This document shows, piece after piece, positions 398-30,455 of a stretch of DNA of 64,000 nucleotides. The stretch comes from Proteiniphilum sp. X52 (GTDB lineage: Bacteria > Bacteroidota > Bacteroidia > Bacteroidales > Dysgonomonadaceae): positions 1-64,000 of the forward strand of contig NZ_RDSD01000005.1 of the NCBI RefSeq assembly GCF_003712195.1, given 5' to 3'. The notes beneath the pieces are model-generated. The model saw only the letters and a program-made list of their open reading frames with translations. It made no database searches and was not told where the DNA came from. Numbering within the stretch: position 1 is the first letter of the stretch; each line of letters starts with the position of its first letter. The translations under genes and the position numbers were made by a program.

Positions 398-480
398 CAG
401 TTAAAAACACAAAAAAAATTATATTCCGCCACTGATAATCTTTATTTGCGTTTTCTCATACTCAAAAAACGCAAAAATAT
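398..480 (-). promoter_or_regulatory. Shared upstream element, copy (i), with a perfect inverted repeat
   Basis: TTTGCGTTTT (445-454) and AAAACGCAAA (466-475) form a perfect 10-bp inverted repeat with an 11-nt spacer. A CAAAAAAA block at 410-417 lies 38 nt before the GCG. The same parts with the same spacing occur at 12405-12474 and 30386-30455. Read on the minus strand, the GCG repeat is upstream of a T-rich block ending in TTTG that could serve as the -7 region. Distance to the ATG at 318 is about 90 nt. It also sits just beyond the 3' end of the gene at 563, so a terminator role is possible, although there is no clear U tract. Confidence 0.5.
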
Positions 481-562
481 TTTAAATGAATTATCCACCC
501 TTGTTGCTATGACTTCCATTCAGCATTGGATAAAAATGATGAATGACTTTTTCATAATTCAA

Positions 563-1972
563 CTATAACTCCGAAATATACACTTCCAGTGGAGATAGCA
601 TCTCTTTCCGGATACCGGAGATATTAAGCGGCAAATTATCCGTTTTACTTGTGTTGGCAGCGATGATATACTTTTTCTTCCCATCTTTTTTGATCATGAC
701 ATGCAAATTATTATCTACATTCTTTTCCATCGTTTTCATTTTAACAATAGGCAAATTGTTATTCAATTCGCCTAACATCGGTAATAAGGCATCGAATACT
801 TCCGCTGTTTTGCTCCAGTCGTTCCAAAACAGGATCCCCGTTGCCCCGTGGATGATGGAAGTATAGATTTGACATTTTACTATCTCGATATACTTTTCGG
901 GTGGCACATTGGAAGGTTTTGCATACCCATTCCCATCAAAATAGATCCAGATGGGGGTATTGGGACCTAATCCTTCCCTCAACGCATCTACCGTTATGCC
1001 TGATAATACCGGATAGGCGAAATAATCACGGAAAGCATTTATACCGAACACATCCCCGCTTCCTTTATATCCTGACGCGATCAACCTTGTATTCTCATAC
1101 CAAACAGACTTCAAGGTATCAAGCTCATATTCTGTATAGGAATATTTTCCTTTATCGAATTGATAAACAGGAAGGCCGTTATGGGCATGGTAAAATCCCA
1201 ATAGAGGGATTTCAGACCCCAGGGCTCCCGGATCTATCGATTCGTAAGGAGGATCTTTGGGGAGGCTGTCATGGGTTTGCAGATACTTCTCCTCGAATAA
1301 ATAGGTGCTCCCTTTACAGTGGCCTAATAAATCGACGAAGACAAGCGCATTCGGGTCGTAATGCTTCACCCTTTCATTGATTTTCGCTCCCACGGAAGGT
1401 GGGACAGCCCATTTACTCACCCCTCCCAACGCGATCTCATCGATATGTGAGTAGATATATTGGTCATTGGGAAGTGTTTCCAGGATCTTTTGAATCTCCA
1501 CATCTAAATATTCCTCAAATTCAGGGCTGTCTACTAATTTTTTCATATACTGACTTCGGTGATAATCTTTGTCCTTTCCGTCCGGCAAACCGGGAATCTG
1601 ATCCAGGTATTTATGAAGGATAGGAGAAAAGGGGTTGAGTATATGGTTTTTTTCCGACATATAATCTTTTTGGAGTCCGGGCGTCATGAAAACCATATTA
1701 ATCGGAGCGGTTCGTTCCCGGAAAAGCGATGCGTTCTTTTGATATTGCAGTTCATCCGATTCCACGGAATCGGTAAAGGTATACCCTGGCACATGCCAGG
1801 TTCCGATAGCGAAAAACTTTTCAAACCTATCGCCGGAAAGCCCTTTTTGTAAAACCCAACCGTCGTCATATTTCCATTCCAAACCGGCAGACGATTGTTT
1901 CGTAGGAACGGAACAGGCGCCCAACACAAAAAACAAGGCGGCGATTATCCGATAGTTCATTGTCTTCATCAT
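563..1972 (-). CDS. TIM-barrel lipoprotein, probable glycoside hydrolase-like
   Basis: This 469-residue protein has a lipoprotein signal with the lipobox cysteine at about residue 20 (FFVLGAC). The body has the rhythm of a TIM barrel, including HIDEIALGG and, late in the chain, GATGILFWNDWSK followed by a C-terminal beta domain that starts near NNLPIVKMK. That arrangement is common in secreted hydrolases of polysaccharide utilization loci, but I cannot assign a numbered GH family or name the catalytic acids. It follows the GHL10 gene in the same direction with a 95-bp gap, so it may be the last member of the PUL operon. Function is uncertain; surface or periplasmic glycan processing is inferred. 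Confidence 0.6.
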   Translation of the reverse strand: MMKTMNYRIIAALFFVLGACSVPTKQSSAGLEWKYDDGWVLQKGLSGDRFEKFFAIGTWHVPGYTFTDSVESDELQYQKNASLFRERTAPINMVFMTPGLQKDYMSEKNHILNPFSPILHKYLDQIPGLPDGKDKDYHRSQYMKKLVDSPEFEEYLDVEIQKILETLPNDQYIYSHIDEIALGGVSKWAVPPSVGAKINERVKHYDPNALVFVDLLGHCKGSTYLFEEKYLQTHDSLPKDPPYESIDPGALGSEIPLLGFYHAHNGLPVYQFDKGKYSYTEYELDTLKSVWYENTRLIASGYKGSGDVFGINAFRDYFAYPVLSGITVDALREGLGPNTPIWIYFDGNGYAKPSNVPPEKYIEIVKCQIYTSIIHGATGILFWNDWSKTAEVFDALLPMLGELNNNLPIVKMKTMEKNVDNNLHVMIKKDGKKKYIIAANTSKTDNLPLNISGIRKEMLSPLEVYISEL

Positions 1973-2067
1973 ATTTATTTTTTACTGATTGCTGATTATT
2001 GTCAAGTCCATTAGTTAAATTTACCGGCAAATCAAAAAAAGTATTCTGCAGGATATCATAGCCGTGA

Positions 2068-3798
2068 TTACTTGCTATATCGTTGGAGCACTTCTACCAT
2101 TTCATCGGAGAAATAGGAATAGGCGAATAAGCAAAATCCCTGATAACCGTATTGTTTTACCATTTCAAGTTGTTTGTCAACAATATCTGCATCCATAGGG
2201 ACAGTGGTGTCATCTTTCTTGGTGTAAAGTCTTAGTCCGGGGTATATTCTTTCCGACACACCTTCGGGCGTATAAAGTGCCTGTTCATCAAGGATATCCT
2301 GAAGGATATCCAGTCTATCGGTATAATTCATGGGAAAAATGTAGTCGACTATATTTTCAGCCAGGAGTTCCCTGCTGTCGCGATAGATGCCGTGGTATTG
2401 CTGGGGTCCTACTCCGGAGGCGGCTGTGACCAGCAAATTGGGATCTTTCTTCTTCGCTATCTTATTTACTTCACGAAAAAGTTCTTTAAGATGGCTTGCC
2501 CTCCAATCGATCCATTGTTTGCGTTTTTCTCCCATCGGGTCGGGGCCTGTTACGCCGGCCTGTGTCCGGAGCCCGGTAATCGTATCCTTAAAGTATTCCA
2601 TTACCTGCGGTGAATCGCTGTGCATTAGCTGGAAACCAATTACAACCACCTTTCCTTTCTCTTTCCGGTTAATTGTAACCACAGGCTCATCCGTATCCAG
2701 GCGGACAATGATGTCCGCTTTTTCCGTGACCAGGGAACTGCCACCTATTTTAACCTGCAGGGTATCGATCGATTTTCCGAACAGGTTGTCCGAAACCTGA
2801 AGTTTGATCCGTTCAGTTTTGAAATTCTGGCTTCTCGTAACTCCGGTCAACGAACTCAACAGCTCTTTTCCAAATACACTGTTATCCGGGGAAATCCATA
2901 TGATATCGCCACCCCGTTTCACATACCTGTCCAATGCTTTGGCCATTTGAGGCGGTATATGATTGTAATAGGACATAATAAGCAATCCGGGGGCTTTCAA
3001 TGCGTCAATATTGGCCGGTTTTTCCGAAATATAGGCATAGCCTACTCCCGTACGGTTAAGGTTTCGTTCAATTGTGCCTAATGTTGCTACATGAGGTGTA
3101 CTTGCATCAGGACATAACATCCTGACCGGGTAATGATCTTGGGCAGGCGGGACAATCCGCTCGGGATGATCGAAAAAATCCTGGGGATCAAAGCCGTAGG
3201 ATGCTTTAAAACGGTTTCGTGCCGCTTCCGAATAATCAAAGGCGGCATTCCAGTAACGGGCATAATCGAGATGGATACCGTCAATATCATATTCCAGCAA
3301 TTCTTCCAATACGGACAACAGATACGGATTTACCTCAGGGTGTGCCGCCGATAAGAATACGTGGTCGTAGTTGTTGTCAACAAACGGTTTACTTATCCAG
3401 TCCGGATGCTTGGGTTTCGAATAATAGGTACAGCTCCATGGCTGAACCTTTATTCCGGCCGCATGCGCTTTCTCTATCAGATAGGCGAGCGGATCATACT
3501 GTTCATCTGCATGTACCTTACCAATAAAGTTTTTCGATTTGAACCAGACTTCATCACGTAACATAATGTCGGGCAAAAGGGTATTGATACCCGCCGTTTG
3601 GCATTTTTCAATCAAGTGGTCCACGGTTTCCCGGTCTTTGAATCCCGGAGGATCCACCCAGAGGGCGCGGACTTGAAATTGAGGTTCTTGGGATGCCTTA
3701 TTCAAGATTCCGGTACATCCCGGAAAAAGGATGGCAAGCAGTACAATTTGAATGATCAAGGATATAATTACCCTTTGGTGATATGGCCTTTTCTTCAT
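2068..3798 (-). CDS. GHL10-type lipoprotein with an inserted amidotransferase-like domain
   Basis: Lipoprotein (lipobox LFPGC, Cys 28) of 576 residues. Residues 43 to about 215 match the start of the glycosyl-hydrolase-like GHL10 (YngK/DUF187) barrel: RALWVDPPGF, an AGINTLLPDI strand, and DGIHLDYARYW. The barrel resumes at about residue 415 with WIDWRASHLKELF and FPMNYTDR. Between them are about 190 residues (roughly 228 to 410) that are not usual for the family. They contain LLIMSYYNHIPPQMAKALD, a YVKRGGDIIWISPD segment and KGKVVVIGF, which resemble the class-I glutamine-amidotransferase-like fold of ThuA and beta-galactosidase trimerisation domains. Likely a cell-envelope glycan hydrolase; substrate unknown. 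Confidence 0.75.
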   Translation of the reverse strand: MKKRPYHQRVIISLIIQIVLLAILFPGCTGILNKASQEPQFQVRALWVDPPGFKDRETVDHLIEKCQTAGINTLLPDIMLRDEVWFKSKNFIGKVHADEQYDPLAYLIEKAHAAGIKVQPWSCTYYSKPKHPDWISKPFVDNNYDHVFLSAAHPEVNPYLLSVLEELLEYDIDGIHLDYARYWNAAFDYSEAARNRFKASYGFDPQDFFDHPERIVPPAQDHYPVRMLCPDASTPHVATLGTIERNLNRTGVGYAYISEKPANIDALKAPGLLIMSYYNHIPPQMAKALDRYVKRGGDIIWISPDNSVFGKELLSSLTGVTRSQNFKTERIKLQVSDNLFGKSIDTLQVKIGGSSLVTEKADIIVRLDTDEPVVTINRKEKGKVVVIGFQLMHSDSPQVMEYFKDTITGLRTQAGVTGPDPMGEKRKQWIDWRASHLKELFREVNKIAKKKDPNLLVTAASGVGPQQYHGIYRDSRELLAENIVDYIFPMNYTDRLDILQDILDEQALYTPEGVSERIYPGLRLYTKKDDTTVPMDADIVDKQLEMVKQYGYQGFCLFAYSYFSDEMVEVLQRYSK

Positions 3799-3913
3799 AG
3801 TTCGAATATTAGTTGCAAGTATATTTCTCCACTTTTCCCGGTTTTAGCTGGAATGTCTGGTTTAAAACATCGGCCGTTAGGGAACGCGCGTAATTGCATA
3901 AGTTGAATCAATT

Positions 3914-3945
3914 GCCTGATAATAAGTTTTTGCTTATTATCAGGC
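3914..3945 (-). terminator. Strong intergenic hairpin, probable terminator
   Basis: GCCTGATAATAAG (3914-3926) and CTTATTATCAGGC (3933-3945) form a perfect 13-bp stem around a 6-nt loop. It lies 35 bp past the stop of the DUF4998 lipoprotein gene and 115 bp before the GHL10 gene. There is no run of U on either strand, so it may be an mRNA 3' stabiliser rather than a true intrinsic terminator. It is the likely boundary of the SusC-SusD-DUF operon. Confidence 0.55.
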
Positions 3946-3979
3946 GGTTGTAATAATTAAAGAAAAAATTACCCGTGAT

Positions 3980-5383
3980 CTATTCTATCACCCAGTAATT
4001 GTCGGTCGCGTTGAAATCGAACTCATAAAAATCTCCTGCGCCATCCACCGCAATCAATTTCTGGCCGACCGTAATCAGTTTTACAAACTTATTCCAGCCG
4101 CTTCCGATTTTATTCAGCCCCCGATGAGTGCCTACCGTGGAAATGGGAATACTCCACAGGTAACCTTCCTCATCCACCGCCACGATGTATTTGCTATCGA
4201 ACAACGTGACCGGGCTGTACAGGAAATTGGTAGCTACCGCGGTATTGGTCGGTTTTCCCAGGACGGCTTTGTTGTTCACATACCACGCGTTCATGGCGCC
4301 GGCAGCCGAGATGACATAGAAGAACCCCCTGGCCGGTATAAATACCGGAAAGGAAAATCCTGAGCCAAAATAGTTATTGGCGCCCGATTTGACAAAGGTA
4401 AGCTGGGAATTCTCTATTTGGAACATAAATATCTGGTTGTTGGTATTCACCCCTATAAACTTGTCGTCGTCGTAAAAGAAGAACTCGCGGTAAGTGGCTC
4501 TTGGAACCAATCCCGGATAGGATTCGCTTTGGGTGAACGCTCCGTTCTCATTCAGTTGATACAGGATCAGGTCGCCTTGGAGATTCCATTCATAGAGGCT
4601 CGTGGGGGTATGCGCGGAATAGCGGCTGCCCGGGTCTCCGGGGAAGGCTATTTTCTTGCCGTTTTCAAATACCGCTTTCGGGGCTTTATATTCTTGATAA
4701 CGGCCATACACCGTATCCATCCCCTGCGGCAGGAAAAAGACATTCCGGAAACGGAATTCCGCTCCGTCGGCGAAATCGGCCAGTTCCACCTCGTTGGTCT
4801 CCCTCCCGATCTTTATTGTTTTTTCTGTGCCCTGGTTGTCGGTGTATATAATTTGGGAATAGACCACGCTGTCGCCCGCCATGGCCGGTGACAAAACCAG
4901 TCCATAATTCGACTGCTCGTAATTGAATATCATCTTGGTCAGCCTCCTTACCCGCAAGCCGTCGGCGAAAGTTTCTCCCCATACCGTTGCCGTGGCAGAA
5001 GAGAACAGCGAAGTTTGGCCATTGCTGTTCACGTTCCGGAACTCGAAAAGGGTAGATCCTTCGGGCAGGTTTTCGATAATGATCGAATCTCTCAGCAGGT
5101 TGGAAGAGGTTCGGGTGACATTTTTCACGATAGAATCCTCCCGCTGGTTCCAGTAGATAATGGTCTGTTCAATTTTCGGGTCGGAGCCCAGATACCATGT
5201 GAGTTTGGCTTTGCCAAAACCGGGTATCGACTTGATGGAGTCCACTTTGCCCAAATAGACCTGTTCCTCCCGGTCTGCAAATTCCCGTTGAATTTCATTC
5301 ATATCGTCACAGGATATGATGCACGCGAGGAGCGCGGGCAGGCTCAATAATGCCGTAATCAGTTTATTTGTCATCTGTTTCAT
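3980..5383 (-). CDS. DUF4998-type surface lipoprotein of a PUL
   Basis: A 467-residue lipoprotein (lipobox CIISC, Cys 25). Residues 40 to 230 look like two fibronectin-III-like DUF4998 modules: KAKLTWYLGSDPKIEQTIIY, LPEGSTLFEFRNVNSNG, and a second ADFADGAEFRFRNVFF repeat. The C-terminal half (about 260 to 467) is rich in repeated WNLQGDLILYQL, FYDDDKFIGVN and YFVI-like strands, suggesting a small beta-propeller or lectin-like domain. It is the fourth gene of the SusC-SusD set, 14 bp after the DUF4959 gene. Proteins here are usually exposed at the outer membrane and bind the target glycan. Binding specificity is unknown. Confidence 0.75.
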   Translation of the reverse strand: MKQMTNKLITALLSLPALLACIISCDDMNEIQREFADREEQVYLGKVDSIKSIPGFGKAKLTWYLGSDPKIEQTIIYWNQREDSIVKNVTRTSSNLLRDSIIIENLPEGSTLFEFRNVNSNGQTSLFSSATATVWGETFADGLRVRRLTKMIFNYEQSNYGLVLSPAMAGDSVVYSQIIYTDNQGTEKTIKIGRETNEVELADFADGAEFRFRNVFFLPQGMDTVYGRYQEYKAPKAVFENGKKIAFPGDPGSRYSAHTPTSLYEWNLQGDLILYQLNENGAFTQSESYPGLVPRATYREFFFYDDDKFIGVNTNNQIFMFQIENSQLTFVKSGANNYFGSGFSFPVFIPARGFFYVISAAGAMNAWYVNNKAVLGKPTNTAVATNFLYSPVTLFDSKYIVAVDEEGYLWSIPISTVGTHRGLNKIGSGWNKFVKLITVGQKLIAVDGAGDFYEFDFNATDNYWVIE

Positions 5384-5397
5384 TTGTTCATCATTTG

Positions 5398-6678
5398 TTA
5401 TTCTTGTGGAACCGTATTATCGCCAAAGAAAGATATCTCGCCCATGGAGAAATAATTATCTGATCGCATGCTTCTGGCAATTTCACGGACAAAAATACGG
5501 ATATACCGTACGGGAGCTGCGTTAAATGGTATCTCGTATTCCGCACCGTTAGCACACAGCGCTTGTATGTCAGAAGCGACAGTGTAATAGGGGACTTCAT
5601 GATAGCCTAAATATTGCCAATCGTCTTTGAAGGTCCTGTCGGGAAGTGGTTGGGTGGGATCCTCATTCAGGATATGTCCGGTGACGAGGCTCAACGAATC
5701 TAACCAGTAGGCACGGTTCTGCAGTAGGTTGAAATCGATCTTGTTGGTCCCCCATATTTCCATTGCCGTGATATTTACCTGTCCGTAAGGAGAATTCAGA
5801 TGGTAAAAATGGTGAATAATGCGGCTGAGTTTAACCACCTGTTTCATATCGATGGTAATCGACAAGCCGCTGCCTCCGGGATTTGTCAACCAGCCATGAG
5901 AGGAGGTGTTCACGATATTATCCCAGAGGGTGGAGGTGGAACGGCCTGATAAATTCGTAGTGTTATCAAACGGAATGCTCCCGCGGAAATCGGCATAGGG
6001 TTTCGGCACCATTGTTTCGAAAAACGGCGTGGTGGTAAGCTGTACCGTATCCGAAATATTGCCCCATTTATCTTCGAACGACAAGGCGAAGGTAGTCTCT
6101 TTGGCTTCATGCCCCCTGAAAGAATGTGTCTCTCGCACCATCGTCGAGTAATAGACCTCCCGGGTTACCAACTCATGAAATAAAGAATCATCCAATGTCA
6201 TCAGTCGCACCCCTAATTCGGTGCCTACCGGATTGTCCCATATTGCGACAATTCCCCCGAATCCCGGCATCATTTCCAATGATTCCATGCTGATATCGAT
6301 AATCGACTCTAACGGTTCGAACTCCACCTCCAACGGTTCCGATCTCTGCTCGAACTTGTTCACTTTATAGAGGGTCGCTTTTACCCTGTCCACCCTGTGA
6401 AATCCCTCGATGGTAATGGAATTCTTATGCACTGAGGATTTCTCGGTAAATATCTTTCCGTTTCTCTCGTACTCGGCCATCACATACATGATATCCGGAT
6501 CGTTGGGGATGGTATAGGTGATTGTGGCCCCGCCATTGATAGGCGTCACTGAATATGCCGTGAGCGGGCCGGGATTCCACGGTCCCTCCGGTTCTCCCGG
6601 CGCTGTGGAAATATAGTCGGTGCAAGCTAAGAAAGAACCCACCAGCAAAACTGCTATTATATAACTCAATTTTTTCAT
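5398..6678 (-). CDS. DUF4959/DUF5126/DUF5000 surface glycan-binding lipoprotein
   Basis: A 426-residue lipoprotein (SFLAC, Cys 19). An N-terminal FN3-like DUF4959 region (GGATITYTIPNDPDIMYVMA), a middle DUF5126 region (MPGFGGIVAIWDNPVGTELG) and a C-terminal DUF5000 discoidin-like region (about 230 to 420, with ITIDMKQVVKLSRIIHHFY and RYIRIFVREIARS) appear in order. The DUF5000 part has the F5/8-type jelly-roll pattern used for carbohydrate binding. The gene follows SusD by 41 bp. It is the usual SusE-position partner, probably helping SusD to capture the glycan at the cell surface. Confidence 0.85.
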   Translation of the reverse strand: MKKLSYIIAVLLVGSFLACTDYISTAPGEPEGPWNPGPLTAYSVTPINGGATITYTIPNDPDIMYVMAEYERNGKIFTEKSSVHKNSITIEGFHRVDRVKATLYKVNKFEQRSEPLEVEFEPLESIIDISMESLEMMPGFGGIVAIWDNPVGTELGVRLMTLDDSLFHELVTREVYYSTMVRETHSFRGHEAKETTFALSFEDKWGNISDTVQLTTTPFFETMVPKPYADFRGSIPFDNTTNLSGRSTSTLWDNIVNTSSHGWLTNPGGSGLSITIDMKQVVKLSRIIHHFYHLNSPYGQVNITAMEIWGTNKIDFNLLQNRAYWLDSLSLVTGHILNEDPTQPLPDRTFKDDWQYLGYHEVPYYTVASDIQALCANGAEYEIPFNAAPVRYIRIFVREIARSMRSDNYFSMGEISFFGDNTVPQE

Positions 6679-6719
6679 CCTAATTATATTGTTTTATCAA
6701 AAAAGAAATATCGTGGTTA

Positions 6720-8687
6720 TTACCACCCGTAGGTCTGCACTAAGTTGGGATTAATCCTCAGGTCGTAAATCCTCAATGGGCTCAAATAATCCCTGAAAGT
6801 TACCTGACGGTCATATGCGGGAAGATGTTCCACCACATAAAAATCTTCCGGATCTTTTGCCGTATTTGTCCACCTCATGTATGGAAGCGACCAGTACTGG
6901 TCGGCTGTTTTCCAGCGGCGGACATCCCACCAGCGCTGCGCCTCGAAAGCCAGTTCAATCACCCGTTCTTGCCGGATAATATCTCTCATTCCCACTTTAT
7001 TTGACGGTTTGTCGGGATTTATGGACGCGTTTGCCCACGATTCTTCCACTCCCTTTAAGCCGGCATGTTCCCTTACCTGGTCAATCCAGTAATAGACCTC
7101 CGCGTCGGGTTGCTCCTTCACCTCATTGAGCGCCTCGCTGTAGAGCAGGTAGAGGTCGGCCAGACGAATCAGCGGGAAGTGGTAAGGATGCGCGGTATAG
7201 CGATATGCCGAATTACCCTGGCTGGCGGAAGATTCGAACGGGATGATCTTTTTGGGGAGGTAACTGCCGCTAGAGAACACTTCCCCGCTCCGCCATCTCA
7301 AGAAAGGATTGAACGAAGCGCCGCCGTCGGTCGTCGTGGTGGCAAGCTCGTAATATCCCCGGTCAAAAGCCAAGTCGGCATAGAATCGCGGCTCGCGGTT
7401 GAAATGGATTTCCGCCGTGGTCTCTCCGGTGGCTATATAGGATTCGTGCTTGTCTCCGGGCGTGGCGCGGCGCACGCCGAACCGTCCGGAATAATTATAG
7501 TCCTTGTCTTCGTTGATCGGCACTCCGTTGTTGCTGTAAAATACTTCCACCATCTGCCATGAGGCATCGTGATACTGCACATAGCTCTGCTGGTCTTCGG
7601 CATATATATAGGGGAAGAGACGCGCCAGCAAATCACCGAGACTAGCAAATCCCAACCCGGTGGCGTTTCCTTTTCCATTGGCAGGCATCTCCATGGTCGC
7701 CCAGATTATCCCCGTATTCAGCCTGATATCCTCGGTAATGGCTTTCCGGATAGTCATGAGTTGCACCACTGTGTCGTTCATGTTATACGTTTGCGGCCCC
7801 CCGGCGTATTTATTGAATTTGTAGAGCTGCAATCCTCCTTCGTGGCAGGCGTCGATCGCGCTTTTAATGGCTGTTGCCGCCCTCTCCCATTTCGAGGGAT
7901 CGTACGTGTCGGGTATCAATTGTATTCCGCGGTTGTCAACCCAGTTTTTATAGTCGGGATTTCCGTTGAACAGGGGGCTTGCCCCCCATACCAATACCTT
8001 TGCTTTCACAGACAAGGCGATGGTTTGCGAAATACGTCCCAGTTCGGATGACGGGTCGGGGAGCACCAATGGCAGGCCTTCGATCGCTTCGTCCAGCAAG
8101 TTCACGATATAATCCACGCAGACGTCTATTGGTTCGCGATACGACTGCAACTCCTCGGGACTCGACGAGAGAGGCATCTCCTTGTCAGCGATCACAATGG
8201 GGCCGTATAACTGCATCAGAAAGAAATGGTAATAGGCTTTCAGGAATTTTACCTCCGCAATCCACCGGGCACGTTCTTCCTCCTCTATATCCCGGGGGAT
8301 ATGGATGTTGTTCAGAAAAATATTGCAATCCCGTATGGCGACGTACAGGTTCTTTCCGCCCTGGTTTCCCGACCAGAAATCGAGATAGGGGCTGTTTGTG
8401 TTTTGCTGCCCGAGGGCAGTCAACGCTGCGACTGATCTCAGCGACCGGGAATCCCGTGGAAAAAGCTCGTCAAAACTGGTGTACCAGCCGGGATAAAAGA
8501 ACGGATCGGTGATATCGGGGAGGTGGGAATAACAAGTTCTCAAAAACTTTTCCGCTACCGATCGGTTCGAAAAAGCATGGTCAAGCCTTGGCGCATCATC
8601 CGGCACCACGTCTAAATAGTCGCAACTCAGCATTCCCATCAGGAATAAAAAAGCTGTTATTCTTATGATATTTTTCATTTTAAGCAT
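6720..8687 (-). CDS. SusD/RagB-family outer-membrane glycan-binding lipoprotein
   Basis: Lipoprotein (GMLSC, Cys 22) of 655 residues. It has the SusD pattern: LDVVPDD after the lipid anchor, an N-terminal RWIAEVKFLKAYYHFFLMQL TPR helix, RLADLYLLYSEALNEV, and the C-terminal VIELAFEAQRWWDVRRW signature. The start lies 2 bp from the SusC stop, so the two are translated together. SusD closes the SusC barrel as a lid and delivers oligosaccharide. The length is at the upper end for the family, with extra loops in the middle. The ligand cannot be read from the sequence. Confidence 0.93.
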   Translation of the reverse strand: MLKMKNIIRITAFLFLMGMLSCDYLDVVPDDAPRLDHAFSNRSVAEKFLRTCYSHLPDITDPFFYPGWYTSFDELFPRDSRSLRSVAALTALGQQNTNSPYLDFWSGNQGGKNLYVAIRDCNIFLNNIHIPRDIEEEERARWIAEVKFLKAYYHFFLMQLYGPIVIADKEMPLSSSPEELQSYREPIDVCVDYIVNLLDEAIEGLPLVLPDPSSELGRISQTIALSVKAKVLVWGASPLFNGNPDYKNWVDNRGIQLIPDTYDPSKWERAATAIKSAIDACHEGGLQLYKFNKYAGGPQTYNMNDTVVQLMTIRKAITEDIRLNTGIIWATMEMPANGKGNATGLGFASLGDLLARLFPYIYAEDQQSYVQYHDASWQMVEVFYSNNGVPINEDKDYNYSGRFGVRRATPGDKHESYIATGETTAEIHFNREPRFYADLAFDRGYYELATTTTDGGASFNPFLRWRSGEVFSSGSYLPKKIIPFESSASQGNSAYRYTAHPYHFPLIRLADLYLLYSEALNEVKEQPDAEVYYWIDQVREHAGLKGVEESWANASINPDKPSNKVGMRDIIRQERVIELAFEAQRWWDVRRWKTADQYWSLPYMRWTNTAKDPEDFYVVEHLPAYDRQVTFRDYLSPLRIYDLRINPNLVQTYGW

Positions 8688-8689
8688 GA

Positions 8690-11600: not shown

Positions 11601-11923
11601 GAATAGACCAGTGTCTCATTGGCAGCACATTCGATTGAATACTTTCCATCCACATCAGTTATGGTACCGACGCCCGGCCGTTCCTTTATCGCAACAGCGA
11701 CTCCTGGCAAAGGGAATCCATCTTGGTCGACTACACGCCCGGAAATTTTCACTCTTTGCTGTGCGACATCCCGTACAATTTCCGTTTCATTGATGGTTGC
11801 ATTCTCTCTGAGAACATTCGACTCTTTGCTTTCAGAAACAACACTTCCCAGAGCAAAAAGCGGACTGAAAATCATCATAATAATTATGACGAGACATACA
11901 TTCAATGTTTTTTTTCCTTTCAT
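8690..11923 (-). CDS. SusC/RagA-family TonB-dependent outer-membrane transporter
   Basis: A 1077-residue protein with a long signal region, a CarboxypepD_reg-like domain at about 55 to 135 (KISGRVVDQDGFPLPGVAV), a TonB box zone, a plug with DPLILIDGIEMTSTDLARLN and AALYGARGANGVILVSTKEG, and a large beta-barrel ending in VQRVFNLGININL. There is no N-terminal STN domain, so it is unlikely to signal through an anti-sigma factor. It imports oligosaccharide with the SusD encoded next to it. The gene is preceded by a leader of more than 480 nt containing a 12-G tract and the shared upstream element at 12405-12474. Confidence 0.95.
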   Translation of the reverse strand: MKGKKTLNVCLVIIIMMIFSPLFALGSVVSESKESNVLRENATINETEIVRDVAQQRVKISGRVVDQDGFPLPGVAVAIKERPGVGTITDVDGKYSIECAANETLVYSFVGFAPKEEKAAGANNVTIVLEEDTIALDEVQVVAFGVQKKESVISSISAVRPEELRVPSSNITTAFAGRMSGVIAYQRSGEPGLDNAEFFIRGITSFSASGKKDPLILIDGIEMTSTDLARLNVDDIASFSVMKDANAAALYGARGANGVILVSTKEGKADQISVNIRAELSSSANTDLVKLADPITYMRLHNEAVRTRDAMVELPYTSSKIRETELGTNPLMYPSVDWYNYMLKDRTFNQRVNMNITGGGKAVQYYLAANYQHDTGILKESKENLLHNNININRIQVRSNVTIKLTPTTTAIVRAYGSFDDRTGPRQGIVDGKTVSGGVYAFHLARNATPVRFLPYYPKDEANEFTKHILFGMGSELGSYVNPLAVITSRFREESSSMMLIQMEANHKFSGGLDGLFAKGVFNVQRNASYSLERGYVPFYYHPATTLDGSYQLVALNPDSGTEYLDFTGGGSNVLSTIYGELRLGYNKVFNDMHDVNALLVGTIRNETGLTNEAETLLYATLPRRNLSSAGRLAYGYNSRYFAEFNFGYNGTERFAKKNRFGFFPSAGVGWVISNEEFMEGMKDVISNLKLKATYGLVGNDQIGSRYDRFFYLSQISMNGSGYWFGYNRDYRSGITIGRYANDQITWEIAKKMNLGVELGLFGDLTMLVDYFTETRENILQSRTDIPTTMGLRAIPQANVGIGEGKGFEVELKYQKNFNKNFWTVVNGNFTYATSRYKKLEEPDYSDAPWKLRVGYKINQLRGYIAERLFIDEEDVNNSPKQNLGGTYGAGDIKYKDINNDGVINADDIVPIGYPTVPEIIYGTGLSMGYKGFDLSCFFQGSARSSFMINSASITPFINNGQRGLLQYIADDHWSETNRNIYAFWPRLSAHQVANNNVNSTHWLRNGAFIRLKTAEVGYTLPEKMTKKFHVSMFRVYVSGTNLLHWSAFKMWDPEMAGNGLGYPVQRVFNLGININL

Positions 11924-20507: not shown

Positions 20508-20650
20508 GGCTATTTATTATCAACACAAATCAACTTGAAAAATCTTTTTTGAGAATTACCCCTTTTGGAGTAGACCCTATATTTTATTCCGCTAAATCGA
20601 TGTCCAGGACATGGTCTGCTTTTTTTCCTTCTCCCTATTTGCAACTTCCA

Positions 20651-22003: not shown

Positions 22004-22028
22004 ACGATTATTTTATTTATCATAGGGA

Positions 22029-23225
22029 TTAACCTACCGGTTTAATTCTCAGCAGGACAACGTCCTCCCCCTGAACATTCACCGTTAATTTATTTTTTGT
22101 GGTTCCAATGTTATTCTTTTCCCAGATATTTCTTACAGAATAAGTTCCTTTCTTCATTCCAATTTTCGCATTGAACATCTCATCCCAGTCTATTTCATGC
22201 TTTTGGGAAGTCAATCCCCTGTTCAAGAAGCAGATCGCCCATTCTCCTTTGGCAAGAGGCCTTACCCAAGTTTCCAGGTCTTTTACCTTCATATACCTGA
22301 AACCGGGAATTCCCGCCGGATCTTGATCAATAGAAATCACTTCCTTTTCCGTCAATATTTTCAGTGTCGGTTCATCCATCTCCCTTAAATCATTTCCTGC
22401 CATCAGAGGGGCAGCTAAAATTGCCCAAATAGAAAAATGGGCCCTGTTTTGGCTTTCTGTCAGACCATTTCCCACCTGAAGCATTTCCACATCCATCCAA
22501 AACCCCGGTTTGACATAACGTCTGTACTTGGGCGTTTCATCCAGAATTTGAAGAACGCCGAGTTTAAACCAACTGCCATATCCTTTCTGGCAATCGAAAC
22601 AGTTCATAATGTCTGAAGACATTCTCCACATATGTACTGTTTTCTCTGCCCAAGTCCAAGGCTCTCCAAAAGGACTCACACTCAATACCACGGGGCGACC
22701 TGCCTCCTTCAAAGCATTACTGATTGTCCTTATGGCTCCTTCCGGATGGCAATTGGCCGGAGAGCATCCGTCATATTTCAGGTAATCAACGCCCCATTTC
22801 GCATACTGAATGGCATCTTGGTACTCTCGTCCTCCGGATCCCGACCTCCCCTGACAGGTTTTCTCTCCTATGCTTGAATATATACCAAATTTTAATCCTT
22901 TTGAATGGACATAATCAGCCAAAGCCTTCATTCCGGAAGGGAATGTTTTCGGATTGGGCTGAATAAACCCCAGGCTATCCCTCTCTCCATGCCAACAGTC
23001 ATCAATAACAACATATTCATAACCGGCTTCTTTCATTCCATTGGAAGCCATAGCGTCTGCTATTTCCCTTATTATATTCTCGTTGATATCACAATTGAAC
23101 TTATTCCAACTGTTCCATCCCATCGGAGGGGTACGGGCTATCTGGTCAAATTTCTGGGCACTAAGTTCCACACAAGCCCCCAAGCTTGCAAAACTTAAAA
23201 CAAATGATAAAATACGCTTATTCAT
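22029..23225 (-). CDS. GH27 alpha-galactosidase family enzyme
   Basis: A 398-residue protein with a signal peptide (about 23 residues, ending LSA). It matches GH27 along its length: TPPMGWNSWNKFNCDI, YVVIDDCWHGERD, FGIYSSIGEKTCQGR, WGVDYLKYDGC with Asp 152 as nucleophile, and WRMSSDI with Asp 205 as acid/base. The C-terminal antiparallel domain ends near VQGEDVVLLRIK. GH27 includes alpha-galactosidases, alpha-N-acetylgalactosaminidases and beta-L-arabinopyranosidases; the amino-sugar context favours the first two. It lies 26 bp after the GH109 gene start region and 17 bp after the GH123-like gene. Confidence 0.9.
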   Translation of the reverse strand: MNKRILSFVLSFASLGACVELSAQKFDQIARTPPMGWNSWNKFNCDINENIIREIADAMASNGMKEAGYEYVVIDDCWHGERDSLGFIQPNPKTFPSGMKALADYVHSKGLKFGIYSSIGEKTCQGRSGSGGREYQDAIQYAKWGVDYLKYDGCSPANCHPEGAIRTISNALKEAGRPVVLSVSPFGEPWTWAEKTVHMWRMSSDIMNCFDCQKGYGSWFKLGVLQILDETPKYRRYVKPGFWMDVEMLQVGNGLTESQNRAHFSIWAILAAPLMAGNDLREMDEPTLKILTEKEVISIDQDPAGIPGFRYMKVKDLETWVRPLAKGEWAICFLNRGLTSQKHEIDWDEMFNAKIGMKKGTYSVRNIWEKNNIGTTKNKLTVNVQGEDVVLLRIKPVG

Positions 23226-23241
23226 GCATTTTATGGGTTGG

Positions 23242-24975
23242 TTAGTTTTTACTTAAAAATTCAAGTATTTGTTTCCTAATGGTTCTGAAATAAGTTACAC
23301 TATTGTCATAATCGTCAAAGTTGAGTATGACCGCATTCACATATTCTTTTGCTTTGCCGGGATTTTTTTGCTCCACCATCTTCAATAACTGGTAATCGTC
23401 GATGCCGTCTCTCATCGCTTCAAACCGGATGGAAGAGTACAGTTTACGGTATCCGGGATATATGATGCAATTGTCTCCCGCCGGTAACCGGCCCCTGTCT
23501 CTCGAGGCATCTGCATTTAATTGGTCTTTTACCCAGTAATTAAGCCCCCAGTGCAGGTATCCGGTGACATCGTATTTATAATTTATCCAATGTAAATATC
23601 GTGTCTGATTGAGAGGCAACTCAATAAACCTGTTCGCATAATTGCCTCTGGGACCGACGCAGGTATAGAACCAAATTTCCTTTCCCTCCCCTTTCAACTC
23701 TTTGTAAAAGTTGAAATCCTTGTGAAGGATATCCAGTTGGGGAACCCAGACATCAATTGCTCCGGCTAGCTCTTTTGACGTCAATACCGCATCGAGCACC
23801 TTGACCCCAGGCAGGAACTCATGGATATAATTGCTTATGGTAACATAAGAGGCTGCATTTTTTGCCGTGGGCTCGTCCGCAATGTGCTGCATATACCTAT
23901 CCAGCCACCCTTTCTGTGCAAGGTGTTGTTTCAGGGCAGGCATGAATTGTGTGATGAAATTTTTTGCTCTTTCATCATCGACAGGTAACAAGGTAAACCT
24001 GATCCCGTTTTCGACTTTTTGGGGATTGGGCGAGGAGCGTAACTTGCGGGTTTCTTCATTGTCGGGAAGAGGCACCTCCACGAAAAAAGGATCGTCCCAT
24101 GCCCCGGAACGCCAGGCCAGATGACCTCCTTCTATCCGCTCCAAAGCGCCCACAGCATCGAAAATCTCCGCTTCCTTATCAAATCTGCTGAAATCAAAAG
24201 TATACTTTCCATCATCATATGTATATAGGGTATGCCAGATAGGATATATCCTATGCACATTCTGCCTGTGCGCCGCCATCATTTCGGCATGCATCCCGAT
24301 CAATTCCCAGTATAACGGCGAATATGCCTCTACCGGCTCATTATTATTCAGGTAAGACAACGTCACAGTGCTAAAATGGGCAGACCAGTTCGTAATATAC
24401 AAGGGAGATTTACCCAAGGTGACGGGATATACTCTGATATAGAAGTGTTTAAGCCACGTCTCTGTCTTCTTGCCGACTACCCCTGTAATTTTTACGGTCC
24501 CCTTATACAAACCGGGAATTGTTGCCGCATCTGTAGGTACGGTGATCCACAAAGGCTGCACTTCTCCGGGTTTTATGGAAAAGGCGGAATCAGGTAAAAT
24601 AGGATCGGGGAAATAACCAGATGCTGACCGGATAATGTCTTTTGATGGGGGATTATAAGAGCGTCCGACGTGCACATAGCCCACCCAGCCGGCTGATGCT
24701 CCTTCCAGCGTGGAGAGATCAGATGATATACCTGTTACGCTTGCCCGCATGTTCTTTATTTCTGTTAATCCTGCCACAACAATCTGAATAGTGGCCACTT
24801 CTCCCTTTGCCACCCTGATGGTGTCTATTTCATCCCTGAAATAATTCCTTTCTTTAAGAACCTTAATCAATGGATCTACCTGATAAAGGTACACATGTTT
24901 ATCTTTGCACGATATATAAAATAGAGAAGAGATAAACAAAAAAACAAACAGACTCAATTTTTTAATCATAATCAT
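23242..24975 (-). CDS. GH123-like lipoprotein (probable beta-N-acetylgalactosaminidase, DUF4091)
   Basis: A 577-residue lipoprotein (FYISC, Cys 23). The N-terminal 170 residues form a beta-sandwich (GEVATIQIVV, WITVPTDAATIPGLYKGTV). A barrel follows with the adjacent acid pair MQHIADEPT, Asp 367 and Glu 368. An Asp-Glu pair near this position is characteristic of GH123, where the Asp supports the substrate's acetamido group and the Glu is the acid/base. The C-terminal YRKLYSSIRFEAMRDGIDDY is the DUF4091 signature. Likely removes non-reducing beta-GalNAc, as on glycosphingolipids. Confidence 0.75.
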   Translation of the reverse strand: MIMIKKLSLFVFLFISSLFYISCKDKHVYLYQVDPLIKVLKERNYFRDEIDTIRVAKGEVATIQIVVAGLTEIKNMRASVTGISSDLSTLEGASAGWVGYVHVGRSYNPPSKDIIRSASGYFPDPILPDSAFSIKPGEVQPLWITVPTDAATIPGLYKGTVKITGVVGKKTETWLKHFYIRVYPVTLGKSPLYITNWSAHFSTVTLSYLNNNEPVEAYSPLYWELIGMHAEMMAAHRQNVHRIYPIWHTLYTYDDGKYTFDFSRFDKEAEIFDAVGALERIEGGHLAWRSGAWDDPFFVEVPLPDNEETRKLRSSPNPQKVENGIRFTLLPVDDERAKNFITQFMPALKQHLAQKGWLDRYMQHIADEPTAKNAASYVTISNYIHEFLPGVKVLDAVLTSKELAGAIDVWVPQLDILHKDFNFYKELKGEGKEIWFYTCVGPRGNYANRFIELPLNQTRYLHWINYKYDVTGYLHWGLNYWVKDQLNADASRDRGRLPAGDNCIIYPGYRKLYSSIRFEAMRDGIDDYQLLKMVEQKNPGKAKEYVNAVILNFDDYDNSVTYFRTIRKQILEFLSKN

Positions 24976-24993
24976 TTATATGCTGGTGAATTG

Positions 24994-27900
24994 TTAAAAT
25001 AATCTGGCATCTTCGGTTCCTGAAATAAGCCCAATGATCCGGATTATCCGTTCATAATCGAAAAGATTCTCTTTTCCTCTGCTTCCCTTATAAAAGGAAT
25101 CTCCCCACTGTCGCATATTTTCCGCTTTTTGACTCTTCTTCCATTGAAGGAATAACTCCTCTGATTTTTGCCATTCTCCCAATTGATAAAGAGCGATGCA
25201 TTGCAAAAGGGTATTCGGGGAATTTTGACTTAGTGTGGAAGATGCGACCTTCTCAAGATATTTTTTCTTCATTTCCGGATTGCCTGATTGGGAATGGAGT
25301 ATCGCGCTCATCCAATCTTCTATTCTCGTGTCGATTACATCCTCATAAGGTTTGCCCACGCCTAAATTTCGGGGCCATAGGCGGGCTTCTTCTATTCTTT
25401 TGGAAGCTGCTGTCAGATTTCCGGCGTTCAAAGCCTCGGCAGCTAGCATTAACTTGGTTTCCTGATAAAGCAACCTGCCATCCCTGGCTCCTTCAAAAGG
25501 TAGAATGCGAATATCCGCCAACACTTTTTCAGCATCCTTGTACTGTTTATTCCGGATCAATGTCCTTGCATATAAAGTGGCTGTCGGAAAATGGTATGAA
25601 TTCTTTTTATAGAATGGCGCGATCACATTCAAAGCTTTGCGGGCTTCCGTTTTACTCAAATAAATCCGCGTTAGTTCATGCACATACCGCCATTCTGTGG
25701 GGGTTAACGAGATGGCCTTTTGTATGTCTTTTTCGGCATCTCCATCCAGGGCAAGCCGGGATCTGACAATATAGAATGGAGCGAAGTCCGGCTTGTCTCC
25801 CACGGACACCAATAATTCGAAAGCCTTTTCCTTGTTATTCCTGAAAGCATGAAGTAAAGAGAGGTAATAACCTGCTTTCCACTCACTGCCATTTTGCATT
25901 GCCCACTCAAAAACCCGTTCACTTTCTTCCCGAAAAGGAAAAATAAAATCCGGTTCAAGGGTTTCCGCTTTTTCCAATGCCGCGGCATCGTTTCTAAGAA
26001 AAGCTTCCCAATACTTTATCTCCGGATTGGATGGGGCAAGCCTGAAAAGATCCAAAGCCCTTTGCTTTAATCCCAGAGAGTTATACCAGCAGCCCAATTC
26101 CAGATATGCCTGCTCAGGCATTTCACTTTTTATACTGTTCTGGAAAGCTTCCTGAAGCAAAGGCATTTTATTTTGAAGGTACGCTTCGAACCGGACAAAA
26201 TGATTTAACGGATCTGTTAATGCAATTTGACCGGCATAATAGGTTGACTGATTTTCGTTTCCCAATAACCGGTTCAATACACAGAGCAACTGCAGGCTTT
26301 CGATGTTGTAACGGTTATTGACCAGACTTTTCTCCGCATATTCGATAGCTTTGGAATATTCTTTCCTGAGTGTATAAATTTTAGAGAGTTCGGTGAATGC
26401 GGCGCTCCTATATGGAAGGGAAAGAGCGGCGACTTCAAAACCATCCAAAGCATCGTAATACTTTTCTTGTTTCAATGCCGCTCTTGCGTATTCAAAATTG
26501 GCGGCAGGGTCGTATGTATCTACCGATAACGCTTTATATGCATAAAGAAATGCCGAATCGTAATCCATTTTATGGTAAAAAAGACGGGACATTTCCGTCA
26601 GTGCGGGAACAAAACAGGGATCATATTCCAATGCCTTACGAATAAATGTTTCGGCTTCATCATATAGCCTTAATCCGGCAAGGTCTCTTCCCCTGAGATA
26701 CTGGCCGTGCGCCGTATCCCAATTGAATTGAGTATCCTTGTCAACAGGCCTTTCCAGATCAATGGGCTCACGACTCCATAATAGTTTATTACATAACCTT
26801 ATTGAATGGACAGAATCAGATCTCAACAGGGACGATTGAAACCCATACGTCTTTGCAGTTTCCAGCGATACCGGTTGTACAAGAAGTAATTCTCCTCTCT
26901 CATTATAAAATTGAAGCGTATCTTCCGTCCTTTGCAAAGGATATAATCTGAAAGAAAACCATCCATTGTCCTGACTTACATGTATAACTCCCTCCAGGTT
27001 CACATTGCTCACTCCTTTCGTCCCTTTATACGGAAACCAGTATTCCTTCCATGTATCGGTCGCATAGGGCATAAACCCGATTTGTTTGAACGGAGTTAGG
27101 CTGCTGATTACCATGTTCTGATTAAAAAGTCTTCCACTTTGAAGTTCCACGTATTGCCCCTTGCTGTCGGTAAGCAATTCTTTCCAGATATCACCCTGGT
27201 CAGACAAAGCCCAACTGAAAATTTTGCGTCCCAATTTTTCATCCCTATCGGCATATTGCATCATTCCGACATCCTCCGAAGCCCAATAAGCTCCAAAATA
27301 AGGACTGTGGGTTCCCATAATATGGTATGACTTGGAGCCTATAAAGTCATTTTCAATCCATCGGGTCAGGTTTTTGTTCCTCAAAGAATCCATGGGCCAG
27401 GGTAAGGCAATGCCATCATGCCGGATATTGTGTTTTCCCGGATAAATGAATTCGAGATCTTCTTTGGCAAGAACGCCTGTATTCACCCAATTATAATAAG
27501 GTTGGGTTCCCGATGTGGAGTTATGCCAAAAAGAACGGGTAGTGAACCAGCCTTTATCGTTAGGGAGGTTTATTTCAACGGTCCAACGGCTTCTTGTCAA
27601 CAAATCCAGTACCCCTATGAAACAACTTGCGCTTCCATCTTCATTCACCTTTGTCATATAGTCCACAGGGAAAGAACAGGACGGGGCATGCCCTACCACT
27701 CCGTAGTTAAATTCAATGCCGCCGCTTGTCCATGGACCGCGTAAGGAGATATCCCTGAATTTTACGACATCGTTGTCATAAAATAACTCTTTTCCGTTCG
27801 TTTTGTCCATGACAGACCATATTTTGCCTCCTATTTCGGGAAAAATCTTTATCTTAAGAAAGTTGTTTTCGAGTTCAACAATTTTCCATGATCTCTTTTC

Positions 27901-28089
27901 TGCTCTTTCGGTAAATCCGTCATATCTATAGTATGGATATATCTTTCCGAATACAGGTACAGGGTTAGGGTCAGAAAAAGAATAGGTGACATATTCCTGC
28001 CCATACTCTTTTATACTTGAAACATTTTGCCCGTATAAAGAAGATGCAAACAATGCAAGCGCAATAAAAGCTGTATATTTCACCATCAA
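24994..28089 (-). CDS. DUF5107 protein with C-terminal TPR array
   Basis: A 1031-residue secreted protein (signal peptide ending LYG-QNV). Residues about 35 to 350 are DUF5107, a galactose-mutarotase-like beta-sandwich (WKIVELENNFLKIKIFPEIG, GGIEFNYGVVGHAPS). From about 490 to 990 there are repeated 34-residue TPR units (YDEAETFIRKALEYDP, YSKAIEYAEKSL, QYKDAEKVLADI). DUF5107 proteins with long TPR tails recur in Bacteroidetes sugar loci, but no reaction is established that I know of. It is 18 bp upstream of the GH123-like gene and probably cotranscribed. Confidence 0.75.
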   Translation of the reverse strand: MMVKYTAFIALALFASSLYGQNVSSIKEYGQEYVTYSFSDPNPVPVFGKIYPYYRYDGFTERAEKRSWKIVELENNFLKIKIFPEIGGKIWSVMDKTNGKELFYDNDVVKFRDISLRGPWTSGGIEFNYGVVGHAPSCSFPVDYMTKVNEDGSASCFIGVLDLLTRSRWTVEINLPNDKGWFTTRSFWHNSTSGTQPYYNWVNTGVLAKEDLEFIYPGKHNIRHDGIALPWPMDSLRNKNLTRWIENDFIGSKSYHIMGTHSPYFGAYWASEDVGMMQYADRDEKLGRKIFSWALSDQGDIWKELLTDSKGQYVELQSGRLFNQNMVISSLTPFKQIGFMPYATDTWKEYWFPYKGTKGVSNVNLEGVIHVSQDNGWFSFRLYPLQRTEDTLQFYNERGELLLVQPVSLETAKTYGFQSSLLRSDSVHSIRLCNKLLWSREPIDLERPVDKDTQFNWDTAHGQYLRGRDLAGLRLYDEAETFIRKALEYDPCFVPALTEMSRLFYHKMDYDSAFLYAYKALSVDTYDPAANFEYARAALKQEKYYDALDGFEVAALSLPYRSAAFTELSKIYTLRKEYSKAIEYAEKSLVNNRYNIESLQLLCVLNRLLGNENQSTYYAGQIALTDPLNHFVRFEAYLQNKMPLLQEAFQNSIKSEMPEQAYLELGCWYNSLGLKQRALDLFRLAPSNPEIKYWEAFLRNDAAALEKAETLEPDFIFPFREESERVFEWAMQNGSEWKAGYYLSLLHAFRNNKEKAFELLVSVGDKPDFAPFYIVRSRLALDGDAEKDIQKAISLTPTEWRYVHELTRIYLSKTEARKALNVIAPFYKKNSYHFPTATLYARTLIRNKQYKDAEKVLADIRILPFEGARDGRLLYQETKLMLAAEALNAGNLTAASKRIEEARLWPRNLGVGKPYEDVIDTRIEDWMSAILHSQSGNPEMKKKYLEKVASSTLSQNSPNTLLQCIALYQLGEWQKSEELFLQWKKSQKAENMRQWGDSFYKGSRGKENLFDYERIIRIIGLISGTEDARLF

Positions 28090-28160
28090 TAAAGTTTAAA
28101 GATAATTCCCACCTCCCCGAAACATGGGAGGTGAGAAATTAAAACCAGTCACATTCTGTT

Positions 28161-29894
28161 TTACCAGTTCGGATTTTGAGTGAGATTGGGATTTCGATCC
28201 CTTTCAGCGGTTGGAATCGGCCATAAATAGTTTTTTTCCTCAAATTTATTCACGTATATGGTATTTCCTAAAAAGTCTACTTCATTACCATTGAGCATTT
28301 CCACTCCTAATTTCCATCTTTTTATATCATAATATCTATGACCCTCAGCCGGAAACTCAACAGCACGCTCCTGCATGATCCGTTTAAAAACCTCTTGTTT
28401 CGTGCGGGCTTCCAACCACGTCGGGCCACTATTGAGAGCTGGAAGGTTGGTCGACGGCCTTTGACGCACCTGATTGATACAGGCAACCGCCTTGTCTATT
28501 TGGTCCAATTCATTGTAGCATTCGGCTAACATGAGCAGGACATCCGCATAACGGATAATCGGGAAATTAATGGGGATATGCGACCTTGAGGTAACTAATC
28601 CATCCATATTTCCCTCAGGGACGAATTTCCGATACAGGTATGTTCTGTATCCTCTGTTTACCACAATAAATCCATTGGTTGTGGTAACGCCGGTAGCAAT
28701 TACATATTCACAATCCTTGTTTTTATTTCCAACCCATCCGGTATAATGGGTATAAGGCAGGATTATGGTCTGTTTCATTCTTGGGTCGCGTTGTTCATAC
28801 ATATCCAATAACTCTTTATAGTATTCAGGATATTTCACGACTGTTTTCTTATCTTCAGAAAGAACCGCCATAAACGTTTTTTCCCTTACCTCCTTGCTAT
28901 CATTGAATCCTGGAATGAAATCATCCCAATTGAACGGACGTCCATCCTTTAATTCATAGCTGTCTACCAGTTCCACCGAAGGCATGGCATTATTCCAACT
29001 AACCCCGATGGTGGCATTTGATCCCATATAATGGGCAAAAGGCATTCCCATGTTAAAGGTGCCGCTGCCCGACATATTTTGAATGGCAAAAACCATCTCT
29101 TTGCTCTCATCCCCTCCTGGCAAAAACAATCCCGCATAATCTGAATATAATTCATACCCGTATCCCTTTTTATCGGGATCAAGCACAATCTCTTCAAAAT
29201 CTTTTAGCGCCAAATCATATTGCTGTCCGTACAGGTATACCTTTCCCCTTAACGCGTACGCCGCACCTTTGGTCGCCCGTCCATAGTCTATCTGTGCCCA
29301 GGATACAGGGAGGTTATTGATCGCTGTTTCCAGGTCTTCTAATATAAAATCCCTTACCTTTTCTATCGGATCGCGAGGATTAATCATATCCATATAATTG
29401 GCGTTATAATCCCACGTTTCATCGTAAATAGGAACATCCCCAAAATGATTGATCAGGAAAAAGTAATAAAGGGCTCGCATAAACTTGGCTTCCGCTATCG
29501 TAACGGCCTTTATGTCATCACTGATTGTTCCCGATTGGGAAATATTAAAAATTGCCATATTGGTTCTTGCCACACCTTCGTATGTTTGGACCCATCTGTT
29601 TAGCGCATAGCGATGACTGGGAGTCCATACTCCTCTGGAGATGTCCCAGTATCCCTGTGAATCATACCCCGTTCCTATATCCGTTAAACAATCCATTGCA
29701 AAAAACTGATTATATACTTCAGCCAATTTCATTGACTGGTAACAGGGCATAACGGCTTGTTTGGCATGTTCGTCCGTTTGCCAGAAAGTTCCTGAACTTA
29801 ATTTATCCTGCGGAAATCTATCCAGATCATAACAGGAAGGAAGCAAGGCGAAAAATGCAACCAACCCTATTAATTGTATTGTGTTATTTTTCAT
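28161..29894 (-). CDS. SusD/RagB-family lipoprotein without a SusC partner
   Basis: A 577-residue lipoprotein (LLPSC, Cys 21) with the SusD pattern: CYDLDRFPQDKLS, AEAKFMRALYYFFLINHFGD, IRYADVLLMLAECYNEL and the C-terminal AVEFPAEGHRYYDIKRWKLG. It is a complete member by length and motifs. SusD genes are almost always immediately downstream of a susC; here the 996 bp upstream hold no gene. It may serve the SusC at 8690-11923 or another elsewhere, or its partner has been lost. It appears to start the transcript carrying the DUF5107, GH123, GH27, GH109 and GH36-like genes. Confidence 0.92.
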   Translation of the reverse strand: MKNNTIQLIGLVAFFALLPSCYDLDRFPQDKLSSGTFWQTDEHAKQAVMPCYQSMKLAEVYNQFFAMDCLTDIGTGYDSQGYWDISRGVWTPSHRYALNRWVQTYEGVARTNMAIFNISQSGTISDDIKAVTIAEAKFMRALYYFFLINHFGDVPIYDETWDYNANYMDMINPRDPIEKVRDFILEDLETAINNLPVSWAQIDYGRATKGAAYALRGKVYLYGQQYDLALKDFEEIVLDPDKKGYGYELYSDYAGLFLPGGDESKEMVFAIQNMSGSGTFNMGMPFAHYMGSNATIGVSWNNAMPSVELVDSYELKDGRPFNWDDFIPGFNDSKEVREKTFMAVLSEDKKTVVKYPEYYKELLDMYEQRDPRMKQTIILPYTHYTGWVGNKNKDCEYVIATGVTTTNGFIVVNRGYRTYLYRKFVPEGNMDGLVTSRSHIPINFPIIRYADVLLMLAECYNELDQIDKAVACINQVRQRPSTNLPALNSGPTWLEARTKQEVFKRIMQERAVEFPAEGHRYYDIKRWKLGVEMLNGNEVDFLGNTIYVNKFEEKNYLWPIPTAERDRNPNLTQNPNW

Positions 29895-30053
29895 ATGACT
29901 AAAATATTTATTTTCAATGGTGTCATATGGAACTCGCTTTAGTCATGATCTTGTGTGATAATGATTATCAAGCTCGTTTCATATGATTATTTTATTTTTT
30001 TATTTCGGTATATGGAACCTTTGATGTTCAAAATAATCACTAAAGTTAGATAT

Positions 30054-30106
30054 TTGAGTCGCCTTCGCTCCTCGATTGCTAATTGAGTCGCCTTCGCTCC
30101 TCGATT
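30054..30106. repeat. 24-bp perfect direct repeat, 29-bp period
   Basis: Two identical 24-nt units at 30054-30077 and 30083-30106, each containing GTCGCCTTCGCTCCTCG, separated by 5 nt. The units are GC-richer than their surroundings. Confidence 0.85.
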
Positions 30107-30330
30107 TTCAATTCCTCGCTATGGCATAGTCCAAACAAGTTTGTCCTTTGCTCATTTAGCTTAACGGAAATATTCATTCCCTTCGGGTGTTTAATGATTA
30201 TTTTAAACATGTCGGTTTCATTTGCCTATAATTAAATAAATCAAATATTCTCTTGATCATTTATAATCGTCATCTCTCTAATTTTATGGTAAACAGAATA
30301 TTATGTCATCAAATGGCCATATACTTAAAA

Positions 30331-30348
30331 ATTCCCGATAGCGGGAAT
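30331..30348 (-). terminator. Hairpin with U tract, possible attenuator
   Basis: ATTCCCG and CGGGAAT pair around ATAG and are followed on the minus strand by TTTTT. It lies about 40 nt downstream of the proposed -7 block of the orphan SusD unit and 540 nt past the 30891 stop. It could therefore be either an attenuator of the SusD leader or a late terminator of the right-hand operon. The stem is only 7 bp. Confidence 0.35.
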
Positions 30349-30385
30349 GAAAGCAAGTTTATGTCTTTAAAGTTTATTTTATTTT

Positions 30386-30455
30386 ACACAAAGAAAGTCA
30401 GAGTAAAATTTATAAAAGTTTATTTTGCGAAATTATATCTTCAAAAAACGCTAAT
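30386..30455 (-). promoter_or_regulatory. Shared upstream element, copy (iii), before the orphan SusD
   Basis: CAAAGAAA (30389-30396), GCGA at 30427 and TCAAAAAACG from 30441. Minus-strand reading: CGTTTTTTGA, 11 nt, TCGCAAA, about 30 nt, TTTCTTTG. It is about 490 bp upstream of the SusD ATG, nearly the same distance as copy (ii) to SusC. Confidence 0.55.

Follow-up and report, generated by a model that had tools for sequence, protein, structure and literature searches.

Candidate operators of a XylR-type regulator in front of SusC/SusD and amino-sugar gene runs in Proteiniphilum sp. X52

We analysed a 64,000-nucleotide stretch of the Proteiniphilum sp. X52 genome (contig NZ_RDSD01000005.1, positions 1 to 64,000; hereafter, the window). 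Between positions 39275 and 31, it holds four gene runs on the minus strand, each headed by one copy of a short two-part element. Three of these copies had been read, in an initial annotation, as the binding site of one regulator plus a degenerate -7 box joining two Sus units, and comparative genome data on the sites, the regulator and the flanks support that reading. The shared site stands; the regulator, a fourth site and the direct-repeat structure with its 21-bp register had been overlooked. The elements are very likely operators of the XylR-type regulator encoded at 39388-40551. The main features are as follows:

445..471, minus strand: operator 1, CGTTTTTTGA-N10-ACGCAAA, exact match; TTTG at 410-413, 62 bp from operator start to end of TTTG; 5' of a 95-amino-acid secreted-protein open reading frame (ORF; 31-318)
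12444..12470, minus strand: operator 2, CGCTTTTTGA-N10-TCGCAAA, exact match; TTTG at 12408-12411, spacing 63 bp; upstream of SusC (8690-11923)
30424..30450, minus strand: operator 3, CGTTTTTTGA-N10-TCGCAAA, exact match; TTTG at 30389-30392, spacing 62 bp; upstream of an orphan SusD (28161-29894)
39361..39387, minus strand: operator 4, CGTTATTTGA-N11-CGTTTTTGAAG, second half CGTTTT; abuts the regulator stop codon
39326..39333, minus strand: TAATTTTG, core of the -7 element that goes with operator 4; matches TAnnTTTG in full (consensus from PMC7366714)
39388..40551, minus strand: proposed regulator, 387 amino acids; Peripla_BP_3 (LacI-like) sensor and HTH_18 (AraC-type) DNA-binding domain (Pfam)
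563..11923, minus strand: gene run behind operator 2; SusC, SusD, DUF4959/DUF5000, DUF4998, GHL10, unknown
12547..29894, minus strand: gene run behind operator 3; SusD, DUF5107, GH123, GH27-like, GH109, GH97-like, esterase, others
31140..39275, minus strand: putative operon behind operator 4; NagP-like major facilitator superfamily transporter, nagA, nagB/agaI-like, Gfo/Idh oxidoreductases, ApbE-like

Re-reading of the sequence bore out the three copies originally placed at 398-480, 12405-12474 and 30386-30455 of the minus strand. CAAA(G/A)AAA starts at window positions 410, 12408 and 30389, GCG begins 38, 39 and 38 nt past these starts, and TCAAAAA(A/G)CG starts 14 nt after the start of GCG in all three. 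The reported distances of 90 bp to the secreted protein and about 490 bp to SusC and SusD also agree with the approximately 92, 485 and 495 nt that separate TTTG from the start codons. Read along the minus strand, the element consists of CGYTTTTTGA, 10 bases, W and CGCAAA, with its CG dinucleotides 21 bp apart. The genome-wide motif search suggested earlier was run, and its spacer had to be corrected: with N11, none of the three copies was recovered even when three mismatches were allowed, whereas with N10 all three matched exactly. The corrected pattern, CGYTTTTTGA-N10-WCGCAAA, has exactly three exact matches in the 4.43-Mb genome; all are intergenic minus-strand sites inside the window. When the window was simulated 60 times with a second-order Markov model, no exact match arose, and the pattern of operator plus TTTG, which occurs four times in the window, never appeared.

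The TTTG of operators 1 to 3 sits where the -7 element of Bacteroidetes promoters, with the consensus TAnnTTTG (PMC7366714), would be expected; its upstream half is degenerate, and no clear -33 element was seen. The sites themselves form a direct repeat in a 21-bp register, with CGTTWTTTGA followed one register on by CGCAAA or CGTTTTT. The fourth site lies 112 bp upstream of the transporter start codon, and TAATTTTG ends 62 bp from the operator start. This arrangement next to the regulator gene recurs across a bacterial family: it was present in all 21 regulator-transporter gaps that were extracted (20 genomes). In these gap sites, the second half-site visibly repeats the first, and the self-similarity is highest when the sequence is shifted by 21 bp. 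As for the regulator, its best match among solved structures is E. coli XylR (4fe4, E=4.4e-39), and this sequence match settles its architecture.

The comparison set comprised 101 related genomes, including Proteiniphilum (G007, an uncultured metagenome-assembled genome of the same genus as the window's genome, and G021, P. acetatigenes DSM 18083) and Petrimonas (G059). The exact N10 pattern gave 10 matches in 4 of the 101 genomes and none with the reversed control; since the pattern was built from the window copies, the evidence independent of it is the fourth site together with the seven exact matches that lie outside this genome. The operator-plus-TTTG pattern gave 69 matches, against 2 for the reversed control. 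It was present in 25/26 regulator-positive genomes, defined by a full-length ortholog of at least 72% identity, and in 5/75 regulator-negative ones. Operators 1 and 3 have orthologous counterparts in G007, and operator 2 is retained upstream of SusC orthologs in both G007 and G012. Comparison of the window with G007 shows conservation of the segment that runs from the operator to the -7 element, and divergence of both flanks. The genes that follow the sites are functionally coherent: NagP-like transporters (25), SusC (10), an unlinked Gfo/Idh oxidoreductase (approximately 13) and few others. Two of the exact sites lie in Petrimonas, ahead of SusC proteins with only ~26% identity to that of the window.

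These observations point to a XylR-type regulon, in which a LacI/Peripla_BP sensor fused to an AraC-type helix-turn-helix (HTH) domain would act through direct-repeat operators near its target promoters. A dimer of the regulator would occupy both half-sites, which span roughly -67 to -41, and the LacI-like domain may sense an amino sugar, probably N-acetylgalactosamine (GalNAc) or a derivative; the families of the neighbouring genes are the reason for proposing a GalNAc-type ligand. Once bound to its ligand, the protein would aid RNA polymerase at promoters without a clear -33 element. Outer-membrane uptake by SusC/SusD, glycan cleavage by GH109, GH123 and GH27 enzymes, and cytoplasmic catabolism through the NagP-like transporter, nagA and nagB could then be induced jointly. 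The four neighbouring operons would thus probably be switched on together for the use of GalNAc-type glycans, binding and activation by the regulator being predicted from the sequence.

Several observations weigh against this reading. The regulator gene itself lacks a recognisable upstream site. (A look-alike at 40632-40659, upstream of the regulator, was not counted; it has three mismatches and the wrong spacing.) The association between site and regulator (Fisher p=1e-17; p=4e-11 when restricted to the family) comes from related genomes, so that these p-values overstate independence. The Gfo/Idh gene is found in three regulator-negative genomes only, of which G058 (86% complete) carries a near-perfect site and one a site with two mismatches. 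A paralog 79% identical to the regulator, with an almost identical DNA-binding domain, is encoded on contig C8. Lastly, the second half-site differs, being CGYT at transporter sites and CGYA at most Sus or Gfo/Idh sites.

This last difference is systematic between the two classes, and it could mean that another AraC-type protein binds at the Sus and Gfo/Idh sites (CGYAAA), leaving the adjacent regulator with the transporter site alone. The other binder would be a diverged paralog or the hybrid two-component regulator with tetratricopeptide repeats (TPRs) at 59434-62352. Paralogs at 56-57% identity share the first recognition helix and have a different second HTH, and hybrid two-component regulators also use direct repeats in a ~21-bp register (PMC3878776). 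A scan around the ~57% paralogs gave no clear sites. However, the first half-site and the spacing to the -7 element are identical in both classes, and G036, which has a 57% paralog without an ortholog, has no site. The TPR-type hybrid gene is located past the regulator gene, at a distance of ~19 kb, and no operator lies near it. Moreover, six genomes (G003, G012, G025, G028, G040 and G047) carry both classes, and the ortholog is the sole full-length XylR-type regulator listed for them, which favours a single regulator for both; a separate binder is unlikely.

It is still less probable that the C8 paralog is the main or an equal regulator, so that the regulon would be common to two proteins. 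Besides its DNA-binding domain, the like site before its own transporter gene speaks for this. Nevertheless, the paralog is unlinked to Sus genes, and G007 has the three orthologous Sus sites with no separate ~79% paralog listed beside its 94% ortholog. An effect of chance or composition in AT-rich intergenic DNA is scarcely credible: although the pattern was picked after the copies had been seen, controls and simulations yield essentially none, and cross-genome searches contradict it, the sites being conserved despite turnover of their flanks.

With one regulator for both site classes, the half-site difference might represent a two-level code, with a strong CGYTTT at the transporter/catabolic operon and a weaker CGYAAA at the Sus operons; this proposal is tentative and, on balance, doubtful. 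If it were true, low sugar would suffice to turn on catabolism, and uptake at the outer membrane would require a higher level.

The predicted system resembles E. coli XylR and XylRA of Vibrio strain EA2 (PMC12125979) in its LacI-like sensor, AraC-type DNA-binding domain and AT-rich direct-repeat operators, and, as far as the sequence tells, in regulating transporter, catabolic and glycan-degrading operons. The Vibrio proteins of this type act as activators with xylose and have AT-rich direct repeats as their sites (PMC12125979). In contrast to these xylose-responsive systems, the one in the window has targets that point to an amino sugar, it includes SusC/SusD uptake, and its promoters resemble those with a Bacteroidetes -7 element. 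In Bacteroides, hybrid two-component system (HTCS) and SusR regulators use long-spacer direct repeats upstream of susC/susD operons, with 16+5 or 12+9 bp giving a 21-bp register (PMC3878776); a direct repeat of ~21-bp register likewise lies upstream of susC here. Unlike an HTCS, which has a periplasmic sensor, or a SusR-like protein, the regulator linked to the locus is soluble and fuses LacI-like and AraC-type parts. No HTCS with a periplasmic sensor was found in or beside the locus, and the only hybrid kinase found has TPRs. The ROK-family protein NanR of the sialate/N-acetylglucosamine regulon of Bacteroides (PMC3878776) is also a cytoplasmic regulator of amino-sugar catabolism, but the regulator families are unrelated. 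By analogy, the system may operate like the Vibrio XylR type while being positioned like the Bacteroides HTCS/SusR regulators. At the level of titles and abstracts, and with incomplete coverage, we found no account of a Sus locus being connected with amino-sugar catabolism by a regulator of the XylR type. The proposal gives a concrete regulator-operator pair for a SusC/SusD locus apparently outside the usual hybrid two-component or SusR control, and it would link, in Proteiniphilum and its relatives, the uptake of glycans at the outer membrane with the breakdown of amino sugars in the cytoplasm. The pattern also allows regulon members to be predicted in ~25 genomes of the family. In the genome of the window, four further sites are likely members:

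C8:103480: before the transporter gene of the paralogous regulator
C3:121142: before a Gfo/Idh gene
C3:132771: before a GH97-like gene; one mismatch
C14:530565: before another SusC

The first of these is the own site of a second regulator-transporter-nagA-nagB-Gfo/Idh cluster (C8:98.9-104.7 kb; L097, L098), which is 79-84% identical. Similar sites, CGTTATTTGAARTGAGATTTACGTAAA, stand before a short-chain dehydrogenase-like gene (MYELFNIKDKVIVITGG...) in G035, G023 and G046 (L172, L204, L202); G035 is without a regulator ortholog, so another regulator may use the CGTTATTTGAARTGAGATTTACGTAAA sites. Matches at 17 places in G076, of the same order (CGCTTTTTAACCGCAAAG... / CGCTTTTTAACCGCAAAGTTWCGCAAA), were set aside as an apparently separate dispersed repeat unrelated to the operators.

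The shared distance of ~490 bp to SusC and SusD does not appear to be meaningful. It is not conserved, the operator lying 191 bp from the SusC start in G007 and 180 bp in G012, and it comes from unrelated, non-conserved DNA:

29900..30247, minus strand: dispersed repeat that accounts for most of the SusD leader; intergenic, with repeated GAGTCGCCTTCGCTCCTCGATT units and 61 matches across the genome by blastn
12040..12370 (approximate limits), minus strand: lineage-specific insert within the leader of SusC; G007 and G012 lack it, and the genome holds no second copy

A run of 12 G at 12304-12315, within the insert, is a possible slippage site. If the predicted promoters are used, the transcripts of the window would have leaders of nearly 490 nt, which is long for the phylum; the median leader in B. 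thetaiotaomicron is 32 nt (PMC7366714). Long leaders acting as RNA elements were considered and rejected, as positions 1-42000 gave no Rfam match and the leaders consist of the dispersed repeat and the lineage-specific insert.

Within the gene runs, short gaps suggest that the genes at 31140..39275 are co-transcribed, and gaps of 143 and 166 bp in the run behind operator 3 could leave room for internal promoters. In the window, nagA scores above its NCBIfam cut-off, and the NagP-like transporter gene (37923-39275) scores 329 bits, under the curated cut-off of 625. Together, GH109, GH123, GH27-like, nagA and nagB/agaI-like genes suggest GalNAc-containing glycans as the substrate. The orphan SusD has no adjacent SusC partner, and in G007 (C235:52504-52596; L034) only the last 31 SusD residues are left behind the same operator; the orphan SusD unit is in decay. 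The secreted-protein ORF at 31-318 lies at the contig end, where an assembly artefact is possible. Its product resembles an internally deleted form of a secreted protein of ~290 amino acids on contig C3 (136974-137198, L028), the N-terminal 83 residues and the C-terminal RESTQSQTRMTE matching both ends of that protein.
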